Shown: piece by piece, positions 1,165 to 42,449 of the stretch | Layout: the number at the start of each line of letters is the position of its first letter | Position numbering within the stretch: position 1 is the stretch's first letter | Source of the DNA: Sedimenticola sp. | Lineage (GTDB): Bacteria > Pseudomonadota > Gammaproteobacteria > Chromatiales > Chromatiaceae | Length of the DNA stretch: 42,449 nucleotides | Direction: 5' to 3' | Assembly (NCBI GenBank): GCA_027008705.1 | Contig: JALVEB010000025.1 | Span: 1-42,449, forward strand | Translations under genes and position numbers: made by a program | Notes under the pieces: generated by a model | What the model saw: only the letters and a program-made list of their open reading frames with translations | Told to the model about the DNA's origin: nothing | Database searches by the model: none

Positions 1165-1638
1165 CCCAGACCCCCGCAAAAGGAAACACCAGCAATTGCT
1201 AACCCGCATATCTCACCAGACCGCTCGAAAAATCATGGATGACAATGTAAATCAATGACATATGGAAAACAGGCCATCAACGCACGGTCACCACCACACT
1301 GCCCACGAATACTAGTGGATTGGCGGAAGCCTGTGAAGCGCTTTCCGATGTTCGATTGGCGAGGTGGGTGTAAAGATCTGCGTTACCGTAACCGGCCATT
1401 GCCCGCCAGTACCGCTCCCACTCCATCGAAGACAGAAATGTGCAAGCACGCCAAGTCGTTGATTTTTCCCTGGTCTGGGGTGATGCCACCCCGCGTCATG
1501 AGCGTTAGGGGCCTGGATGGCGTGGTCCCGCATGGCGATGCGACTGCCGGTCAGTCGGTGTCCGATTCGTTGTATACTCGTCGCCGATGGTTTGGGTGTG
1601 CCGGACGGAAGCAGGTGCTTCGACTGCGGGGGGCGGAA
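1165..1638. other. Non-coding gap between divergent genes
   Basis: This 474-base gap separates the minus-strand amidohydrolase from the plus-strand Lys-rich protein. It holds one copy of dispersed repeat C (1423-1507). A possible -10 box, TATACT at 1573-1578, lies about 60 bases before the Lys-rich gene but has no convincing -35. Short open frames exist here, but none has a ribosome site or a recognisable product. I see no RNA gene. Confidence 0.6.
1423..1507 (-). repeat. Dispersed repeat C, left copy
   Basis: Read on the minus strand, this 85-base stretch matches 42201-42284 on the plus strand at roughly four of five positions. Both copies begin TAACGCTCATGAC and contain the hairpin GGGGTG-GCAT-CACCCC; the right copy keeps the pairing with one G-T wobble. 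A single-base length difference near the middle shifts any reading frame. The two copies are in opposite orientation on the chromosome, near the two ends of the window, each in a non-coding gap. Its nature (mobile-element remnant, REP-like element or structured RNA) is not known. Confidence 0.75.
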
Positions 1639-1965
1639 ATGGCAGGCAATGTGAAAAAAAAGGCGAAGAAGAAAATCGGGTCGAGAAAAGCGGTTGCTCG
1701 GGCGGAGGAAACGGTCGCCACAAGTAGATCAGCGAAGAAAACCTCGACGAAGAAGGCCACAACGAAGAAGGCCACGACGAAGAAGGCCACGACGAAGAAG
1801 GCCACGACGAAGAAGGCCACGACGAAGAAGGCCGCGACGAAGAAGGCCACGACGAAGAAGACCGAAGCGAAGAAGGCGGCAGCGAGGAAGAGCGCCCCGA
1901 TACCGGCAAAACCCCGCCCGTTGCGACCGCGCAAGGTAACGCCGCGCAAGAAGACTCGCCACTGA
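1639..1965 (+). CDS. Histone H1/AlgP-like Lys-Ala-Thr repeat protein
   Basis: This encodes a 108-residue, extremely basic protein with almost no hydrophobic residues. The N-terminus reads MAGNVKKKAKKKIGSRK. Residues 37-71 are seven pentapeptides TKKAT (one is TKKAA), and the tail is rich in K, R, A and P, ending TPRKKTRH. This composition resembles the C-terminal tails of histone H1 and the bacterial AlgP/Hc1-like proteins, which bind DNA non-specifically; a nucleoid role is inference. ATG 1639 is preferred because a G-rich Shine-Dalgarno-like run lies just upstream and the basic composition begins here; the same frame stays open further upstream but encodes unrelated residues. A terminator follows. 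The DNA repeat makes the copy number prone to change. Confidence 0.75.
   Translation: MAGNVKKKAKKKIGSRKAVARAEETVATSRSAKKTSTKKATTKKATTKKATTKKATTKKATTKKAATKKATTKKTEAKKAAARKSAPIPAKPRPLRPRKVTPRKKTRH
1747..1851 (+). repeat. Seven tandem 15-bp units inside the Lys-rich gene
   Basis: Seven in-frame copies of ACGAAGAAGGCCACG run head to tail, differing at only two positions (ACA in the first unit, GCG in the sixth). Each encodes TKKAT or TKKAA. Near-identity at the DNA level, including third codon positions, suggests recent expansion by slippage rather than old selection on protein alone. Confidence 0.95.
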
Positions 1966-5609: not shown

Positions 5610-5654
5610 TTTGAAATCAGGAAACGTCACGCGAGATGAAGCGCGATTGCCCTG
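5610..5654 (+). repeat. Dispersed repeat B, copy 1
   Basis: This 45-base stretch matches 27203-27247 at 40 of 45 positions. The first 15 bases (TTTGAAATCAGGAAA) and the last 19 (ATGAAGCGCGATTGCCCTG) are identical; the differences are all in the middle. This copy lies between the convergent GTPase gene and rnfE. Unlike copy 2, it lacks the upstream arm that would make a long hairpin. Confidence 0.85.
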
Positions 5655-27092: not shown

Positions 27093-27142
27093 CTTGCGGA
27101 AATGCCGAACTCCGCTGGCCAGGACAATCGCGCGTAAATGCC

Positions 27143-27188
27143 ATTGACCTGACAAGGCACAGGCCCGATCCAGCGTGGCGGATCGGGC
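27143..27188 (+). repeat. Dispersed repeat A, copy 1
   Basis: This 46-base stretch matches 42338-42383 (minus strand) at 37 of 46 positions. Both begin ATTGACCTGACA and both form the same perfect hairpin GCCCGATC-N10-GATCGGGC, while most of the loop differs. Conserved stem with variable loop is what a REP-like element or structured RNA shows. It is joined to repeat B downstream. Confidence 0.8.
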
Positions 27189-27251
27189 AACCGCGCCAAG
27201 CCTTTGAAATCAGGAAATCTCAAGTGAAATGAAGCGCGATTGCCCTGATCC
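27180..27251 (+). repeat. Large inverted repeat enclosing repeat B
   Basis: The arm GGATCGGGCAACCGCG (27180-27195) pairs with CGCGATTGCCCTGATCC (27235-27251) apart from one bulged base and one mismatch. The loop holds most of repeat B. The left arm also belongs to the repeat A hairpin, so two alternative folds compete. It sits between the lon terminator and the hupB promoter. Confidence 0.7.
27203..27247 (+). repeat. Dispersed repeat B, copy 2
   Basis: This matches 5610-5654 at 40 of 45 positions, same orientation. Here the 3' part is one arm of a long inverted repeat, whereas the other copy lacks the partner arm. Both copies lie downstream of a plus-strand stop codon in non-coding DNA. Confidence 0.85.
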
Positions 27252-41346: not shown

Positions 41347-42134
41347 AGGTCTGGGCGATCGCCAACCAGAAGGGCGGGGTCGGCAAGACCACCACCACGG
41401 TCGCTCTCGGTGGCCTGCTCGCCGCTTGGGGGTTGCGCACGCTGCTGGTCGATGTCGACCCGCACGGTTCGCTGACCACCTATTTCCGTTATGACCCGGA
41501 TGCGGCGGAAGACAGCAGCTGGTCGCTGTTCGATGCCTCGGTCAAGCGCTATCCGCTGGACCCCCGCCGTCTGCTTCATCCCACCGGAACCGACGGGTTG
41601 GATCTGATCCCGTCGGCGATGCCGTTGGCCGCGCTGGAACGTCAGTCCGGCCAGCGCAAGGGACTGGGCCTGGTGCTGAAGCAGGCGTTCGGCGAGTTGC
41701 GGCGGGAGTACGACTATGTGCTGGTCGATTGCCCGCCGGTGCTCGGCATCCTGTTGATCAACGCCCTGGCCGCATGCCAACACCTGATCGTGCCGGTGCA
41801 GACCGAGTTTCTCGCCTTGAAAGGGCTGGAACGCATGACGCGCACCCTGGCGATGGTCGATCGCGCGCGTCCGCGCCCGCTGCCTTATACCGTTGTGCCG
41901 ACCTTCTTCGACAAGCGCACCAATGCCTCGCGCGAAAGCCTGCAAGTGTTGCGCACCACCTATCCGGAGGTGTTGTGGCCGGGCGTGATCCCGATGGACA
42001 CGCGCTTGCGCGAAGCGGCGCGCGCGGGCCTGCCGCCGGCGATCTACGACCCCCGCTCGCGCGGCGTGGTCGCATATTCGGAGTTGCTCGACTATCTGCG
42101 CACCGATGCGCCGGCGTCGGTCGCGGGCGTTTGA
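41343..42134 (+). CDS. parC: ParA-like ATPase for chemotaxis array positioning (ParC)
   Basis: This 263-residue ParA/Soj-family ATPase has deviant Walker A KGGVGKTT (10-17), VDVDPHGSLT and YDYVLVDCPPVLG. In Vibrio and Pseudomonas the ParA-like gene after motCD/cheA recruits chemotaxis arrays to the cell pole through ParP, and context assigns this gene that role. ATGA overlap with motD couples translation. ParP and CheW, usually next, are not found in the remaining 315 bases. The symbol is the chemotaxis ParC, not the topoisomerase subunit. Confidence 0.88.
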   Translation: MKVWAIANQKGGVGKTTTTVALGGLLAAWGLRTLLVDVDPHGSLTTYFRYDPDAAEDSSWSLFDASVKRYPLDPRRLLHPTGTDGLDLIPSAMPLAALERQSGQRKGLGLVLKQAFGELRREYDYVLVDCPPVLGILLINALAACQHLIVPVQTEFLALKGLERMTRTLAMVDRARPRPLPYTVVPTFFDKRTNASRESLQVLRTTYPEVLWPGVIPMDTRLREAARAGLPPAIYDPRSRGVVAYSELLDYLRTDAPASVAGV

Positions 42135-42200
42135 GACCTGGCGCCCGGGCGTTGTGGCAGGCTGGGAGATATTCCGATAATGAATCAGTCTCTTTACGAT

Positions 42201-42284
42201 TAACGCTCATGACACGGGGTGGCATCACTCCAAATCATGAAAAAATAAATGACTTGCCTGCTTGCGCATTTCCACCTTCGCAGG
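42201..42284 (+). repeat. Dispersed repeat C, right copy
   Basis: This 84-base stretch is the partner of 1423-1507 (minus strand). The two share TAACGCTCATGAC, CGGGGTGGCATCAC, GACTTG and GCTTGC in order. The hairpin GGGGTG-GCAT-CACTCC is kept with a wobble pair. A one-base gap separates the copies in the middle. Confidence 0.75.
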
Positions 42285-42289
42285 CCGGT

Positions 42290-42357
42290 TCAAGTACCGC
42301 GGAACCGGCTGTGGCGGGGCCGAAAAACCGCGTCGCGGCCCGATCCGCGGTACTTGA
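42290..42357. repeat. Perfect 14-bp inverted repeat
   Basis: TCAAGTACCGCGGA (42290-42303) and TCCGCGGTACTTGA (42344-42357) are perfect reverse complements. Inside, GGGCCG and CGGCCC can pair as well, so the whole 68 bases could form a long hairpin or cruciform. The right arm overlaps repeat A. Confidence 0.85.
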
Positions 42358-42383
42358 TCGGGCTTACGCCCTGTCAGGTCAAT
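42338..42383 (-). repeat. Dispersed repeat A, copy 2
   Basis: Read on the minus strand it matches 27143-27188 at 37 of 46 positions, with the same hairpin GCCCGATC-N10-GATCGGGC and the same leading ATTGACCTGACA. In this copy the loop is part of a separate 14-base inverted repeat, so two hairpins compete. Confidence 0.8.
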
Positions 42384-42449
42384 ATTATTTCAGCGGTTGG
42401 CTGGGTAGTTACCGTATTTCCACATTAAATAATCCGGAAATAGGTGTTT

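Follow-up and report, generated by a model that had tools for sequence, protein, structure and literature searches.

The window analysed here, a stretch of 42,449 nucleotides, is the entire contig G000:C25 of a Sedimenticola sp. genome (G000, the window's own genome, 2.9 Mb in 244 contigs). An inverted repeat is found at its two ends. The initial annotation had described this repeat, and it is real: the minus strand at 1508-1428 aligns with the plus strand at 42200-42279, agreeing at 66 of 81 positions and needing a single one-base gap; without gaps, the best inverted arms (1452-1507 and 42201-42256) cover 56 nt at 86 %. Because a search of the own genome with the right copy as query returns the left copy at E = 1.9e-16, the match is not a product of chance. 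The 8-base leader, the ATG and the GGGGTG/CACCCC hairpin pointed out earlier are all found in both copies, and the boundary originally placed at 1423 extends a few bases beyond the repeat. The placement at both window ends, although correctly noted, is incidental, the window being one whole contig and the copies being dispersed genome-wide. The repeat is the left part of a short non-coding element with two unlike conserved ends, H on the left and T on the right, which we refer to as the HT element. Its features in the window are as follows.

42200..42203, plus strand: TTAA, the YTRA motif abutting the left end of the right-hand copy (from alignment)
42204..42428, plus strand: full composite HT element (right-hand copy)
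42207..42240, plus strand: left-end (H) hairpin, TCATGA...GGGGTG/CACTCC...TCATGA (from fold and alignment)
42260..42279, plus strand: T1, the first right-end-like motif, GCTTGCGCATTTCCACCTTC
42280..42367, plus strand: REPIN with two REP-like arms, GCAGGCCGGTTCAAGTACC... and ...GGTACTTGATCGGGCTTAC (GTAGG... in other copies)
42387..42412, plus strand: right terminal repeat of M3, a second element, ATTTCAGCGGTTGGCTGGGTAGTTAC
42415..42428, plus strand: T2, the right end, TATTTCCACATTAA
1428..1504, minus strand: left-hand copy, consisting of the H end and T1, without REPIN
1505-1508, minus strand: CTAA abutting the left-hand copy
1469..1500, minus strand: H core of the left-hand copy with decayed outer stem, CATGACG...AGACCAGG

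The final 134 bases of the window (42316-42449), inside and just past the right copy, overlap G000:C224:1-134 with one mismatch, so contigs C25 and C224 are probably neighbours. Other repeats are present in the window. On the plus strand, TATACTCGTCGCC at 1573-1585 is the end of another dispersed miniature repeat, with ends TATACTCGTCGCCCATGAATTTTCGG, which occurs at several loci of G000 and G001 and is inserted into the HT copy at L029. Adjoining the left copy, positions 1639-1965 (plus strand) encode a lysine-rich protein with a TTKKA tandem repeat of 15-base period. Two further repeat pairs, one direct (5610-5654 and 27203-27247, 89 %) and one inverted (27131-27188 and 42338-42395, 76 %), resemble sequence that by eye flanks REPIN copies elsewhere in the genome.

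The H end follows the pattern YTRA|C...CATGA...CACCCC[A/T]GATCATGRAAA and the T end the pattern TATTTYCACATTAA. The two ends enclose palindromic DNA that can be exchanged, in many copies a REPIN (paired REP repeats) or another palindrome; some copies have no such insert. The fetched own-genome loci contain 30 distinct H modules, so that at least 30 exist in the genome; own-genome searches with the right copy gave at least 49 matches, fragments included and nearly all on other contigs, and with a longer copy at least 58. In the fullest own-genome form the order is H, T1, REPIN, tail, M3 right terminal repeat and T2, and all of these motifs occur in 4 of the 30 copies, the window's right copy being one of them. 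At least one REPIN arm is found in 26 copies, T1 in 23, T2 in 8 and the M3 left end in 5, while the window's left copy is the sole H-T1 form without a REPIN arm. The REPIN stretch at 42280..42367 also has stand-alone copies in the own genome.

Units in related genomes have the same ends around other interiors. In G001, which belongs to the same genus as G000, the unit measures 73-74 bases including CTAA, with H joined directly to T and no REPIN. Eleven measured units of G197 span 94-158 bases and enclose a different palindrome, others there being longer and some in tandem, and the units of G097 hold at least three different palindromes (by eye). The ends are conserved while the interiors change, both within and between genomes. 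One AT-rich, REPIN-free HT unit was seen in each of G000 (L283) and G197 (L284). A common old interior for these two units was considered, since only 8 of 2000 shuffles aligned equally well, and rejected: the stretch compared had included the T end, without which 168 of 2000 do so. At two other loci, L100 (G101:C69) and L123 (G197:C142), inverted T ends face each other without an H end; L123 lies where its contig begins and could reflect misassembly.

The H core pattern is present in 12 of 210 family genomes, with 32 occurrences in G097, 13 in G000, 12 in G197, 5 in G100, 4 in G001 and 1-3 in each of the remaining seven, and the reversed control gave 0 in every genome. T-end matches number 17 in G000, 4 in G001, 3 in G195, 28 in G197, 1 in G097 and 1 in G101, against control matches of 0, 1, 0, 0, 0 and 0 in the same order. 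In a draw of 369 class genomes the H core was found only in G000 and, once, in one other genome, there in coding-looking sequence. A stricter core applied to 84,980 species genomes, a set from which the own genome was possibly left out, recovered 6 stretches; the 4 MAGs that contain them are labelled Sedimenticola sp. (two), Chromatiales bacterium and Gammaproteobacteria bacterium. Judged by these patterns, which would miss diverged forms, the HT family is confined to a narrow bacterial group and occurs almost nowhere else in the wider searches. Plasmid and phage sequences were searched and gave no match. A viral origin was discarded, the two viral-contig matches being chance-like and, by eye, inside coding-looking DNA.

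Mobility of the HT unit is well supported by its dispersal and by defined units that have inserted where relatives lack them, in agreement with the mobile-element origin offered earlier as one option for the repeat. Four loci were examined for filled and empty sites and two of them, L196 and L193, show insertion of a unit. At L196 the unit is present in G197 and G198, while G195 and G188 are empty and collinear apart from the unit, retaining one TTRA-like site (TTGA in G195, TTAG in G188). This site is the stop codon of the preceding gene and by eye remains a stop codon. Two further relatives at this locus (L208 and L209) have no unit but a different, longer spacer. L193 shows the same filled/empty division over the same four genomes, with a left junction that differs by a few bases and an interior whose length differs between G197 and G198. 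No clean empty site was found at L188 and L200. For the window's right copy no empty site can be demonstrated because its flanks fall on different contigs in G001 and G002.

The bases flanking the units bear on how they insert. From 119 raw rows, which included reverse and chance rows, 88 curated copies were retained. YTRA stands at the left of 60 of the 88 (11 undefined), that is 47 of 60 outside the own genome and 13 of 28 within it, where some copies without left YTRA carry M3 ends or look decayed. Most of the curated HT elements thus have a YTRA motif immediately on their left, and tandem units also occur. The left and right four bases are the same in only 15 of the 52 curated copies with both sides defined (G197, 9 of 18; elsewhere, 6 of 34), so no target duplication is evident. 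Of 12 H-anchored G197 cores, 5 have a left side other than TTAA, and the right side reads TTAA in all 10 cases counted (p = 0.04, counts by eye in a small test); the larger G197 sample was partly chosen by the right end and is therefore biased. The left motif in G197 may be CTAA, TTGA, TCAA, TGAA or TTAG with TTAA constant on the right, and differing sides could also stem from mutation after insertion. The four bases at the right end vary in G097, G100 and G101, which a fixed cleavage site would not predict. Terminal inverted repeats are absent, TTAA alone being common to H and T (by eye).

A second element, M3, also carries HT units. M3 is a miniature element with ends GTAACTACTCAGC...GCTGAGTAGTTAC, starting with GTAA, and it possesses the terminal inverted repeats and target duplication expected of a DDE-type MITE. 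Perfect 8-base duplications flank it at L006, L071, L072 and L084, and 7 of 8 bases are duplicated at L203, whose flanks are the same as those of L053; at L028 the contig stops within the element. The three G001 loci L071, L072 and L084 hold an HT unit inside M3 at an identical position, and at L006 (G000) the M3 ends enclose H and a REPIN. Since these copies are enclosed by M3 with its 8-base duplications, some HT copies have spread as passengers. The nesting is reversed at L203, where M3 is inserted into an HT unit. In its GTAA start and its 8-base duplications M3 resembles IS66-type miniature elements; IS66 ends, as far as PMC11946415 sets them out, start GTAAGCG and are accompanied by 8-base repeats, but GTAA alone is common to M3 and IS66 ends.

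The repeat had also been read as a possible start of a gene, on the ground of silent differences in the ATG frame, or alternatively as a structured non-coding element. The coding hint was not borne out: 25 of the 30 own-genome copies (5 were left out as partial) show 51 silent and 118 replacement differences versus 47.2 and 121.8 expected. Variation is similar at the three codon positions (0.089 at the first, 0.113 at the second and 0.098 at the third), and the frame from the ATG runs for 9 to 79 codons until a stop, with four copies stop-free within 80. The second reading holds in part, in that the element is non-coding and most of the outer stem is retained (86.7 % of cells paired), although with weak covariation. 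Stem tests used 33 left ends chosen by hand, nearly all from an alignment of 89 rows. In this set two-sided changes occur at 3 pairs versus 1.8 by shuffling (122 of 500 shuffles as high), and paired cells amount to 76.0 % versus 75.4 % in shuffles. The covariation score was reached by 14 of 500 shuffles and is the only one of five stem measures that stands out. When the partners are slid, far fewer cells are paired (28-51 %), and at a slide of -3 columns the covariation score rises to 0.107 from 0.093 and two-sided changes become more numerous.

The pair before CATG and after TCATG is T-A, T-G or C-G in 84 of the 89 rows, which include a few chance or reverse rows (G097_L171 first, G190_L143 first, G197_L125, and the second rows of G097_L077 and G101_L076). 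The left hairpin is present, and the right end has no constant hairpin. The right copy folds with z = -4.2, dominated by the REPIN, and the G001 unit with z = -3.1; the fold of the left copy does not surpass that of its shuffles. Over the window, Rfam reports three tRNAs only at gathering score and no family at the repeat. A loose Rfam scan of six loci produced five sub-threshold hits: the best two fall on the REPIN (mir-26, one per strand, the better with E = 4.4e-05 and 34.3 bits where the cut-off is 57), a whalefall-1 hit (E = 0.74) lies inside a G197 unit, and the remaining two (0.36 and 0.84) are outside the elements. Sequence conservation outweighs the structural evidence, and the case for a selected stem is weak.

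Y1_Tnp, the profile searched for a transposase, gave 33 hits in 11 genomes. Thirty of these, at L095, L096 and 28 other loci, were examined with their flanks, and H or T ends adjoin none of them; the flanks contain three degenerate H-core matches with 3 mismatches, without T or left end. G097, with 32 H cores and 92 % completeness, has no Y1_Tnp hit at E <= 0.01. The two hits in G000, L095 and L096, are below the Pfam cut-off and are read as RAYT-like genes. Each is flanked by its own GTAG-tagged REPs, which by eye are unlike the window's REPIN.

We lean towards reading HT as a non-autonomous element, defined by its ends H and T and an exchangeable interior, that is moved in trans by a single-strand transposase without duplication. 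Single-strand insertion without duplication fits best because of the unlike ends, the YTRA motif and the tandem joining of units. A trans-acting enzyme, putatively of the IS200/IS605 or TnpA-REP kind, would cut the left side behind YTRA and the right side behind TTAA; such cutting would leave no target duplication, and the transposase may have been lost from these genomes. A tentative extension, which we think distinctly improbable, is that HT is a novel kind of single-strand element with an interchangeable right-end hairpin, which would capture any REPIN or palindrome that its host has in abundance and use it instead of its own end structure. If so, one pair of ends would have spread several unrelated REP families.

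It is possible, if doubtful, that HT units lack mobility of their own and are passengers of REPINs moved by RAYT and of M3 moved by an IS66-like transposase. In its favour, M3 with its perfect 8-base duplications encloses three copies in G001, all at an identical position, and one in G000; REPIN arms are found in 26 of 30 own-genome copies, and G000 has two RAYT-like genes. However, the filled sites at L196 and L193 contain H...T units that by eye have no M3 ends, similar ends enclose interiors that vary both inside one genome and from genome to genome, units without a REPIN exist in G001 and at the window's left copy, and both RAYT-like genes are flanked by other REP families (by eye). An ordinary cut-and-paste miniature element of the DDE type that duplicates a 4-base TTAA target is quite unlikely. 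It would suit the 9 of 18 G197 copies whose sides are identical and the single TTRA-like site in the empty sites at L196, but H and T share TTAA alone instead of terminal inverted repeats, the left side in G197 can be CTAA, TTGA, TCAA, TGAA or TTAG against a constant right TTAA, and 6 of 34 copies outside G197 have identical sides.

That the repeat is a conserved regulatory, promoter or terminator element is very improbable. Its hairpins and intergenic positions would suit such a role, and 42100-42449 has two promoter-like matches versus a shuffle mean of 0.2, one of them inside the H hairpin; the same interval has no terminator-like site, Rfam has no family at gathering score at the repeat and gave only sub-threshold hits in the loose scan, covariation is weak, the left copy folds no better than shuffles, and the unit is present or absent at orthologous sites. 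A remnant of a protein-coding start is scarcely credible: the ATG common to the two window copies and the silent nature of some of their differences had suggested it, but there is an excess neither of silent nor of third-position changes, and the frames end at differing places. Integron attC sites have the core pair RYYYAAC...GTTRRRY. HT was dismissed as such a site, YTAAC being found at the left only and no GTTRRRY at the T end (by eye).

Returning to the single-strand reading, the closest known systems are palindrome-associated transposable elements (PATEs) and the IS200/IS605 family, whose members, as PMC7290912 describes them, have no terminal repeats or duplications and insert on the 3' side of a set tetra- or pentanucleotide. 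HT resembles these systems (PMC7290912) in being non-autonomous, in its lack of terminal inverted repeats and in the hairpin near its left end, and probably also in inserting 3' of a short motif with no evident duplication. HT differs in that no tnpA partner with matching ends was found among the 30 Y1_Tnp hits examined, in that its right end has no constant hairpin and in that its interior contains exchangeable REPINs. By analogy HT may work like a PATE; membership of the PATEs is not claimed. With the REP/REPIN and RAYT system it shares many interiors that are an inverted pair of REP-like arms tagged GTAGG, and two RAYT-like genes flanked by REPs in G000, but the conserved HT ends differ from REPs and enclose palindromes of several unrelated families. 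PMC3733652 reports REPs inside longer palindromes from A. variabilis, T. roseum and H. neapolitanus. There too REP elements lie regularly within one other repeat; the host repeat as characterized there is palindromic, whereas the HT host has two unlike ends, several cargos or none, and its own filled and empty sites. A literature search of partial coverage, not made by sequence, found no description of the HT element.

An HT copy at the contig end may explain why the contig stops there. More broadly, three kinds of short bacterial repeats (REPINs, a miniature element with GTAA ends, and the ends of HT) come together in a single nested system for which filled and empty sites are available, and HT provides a concrete case of how REPINs may spread as the cargo of another element.
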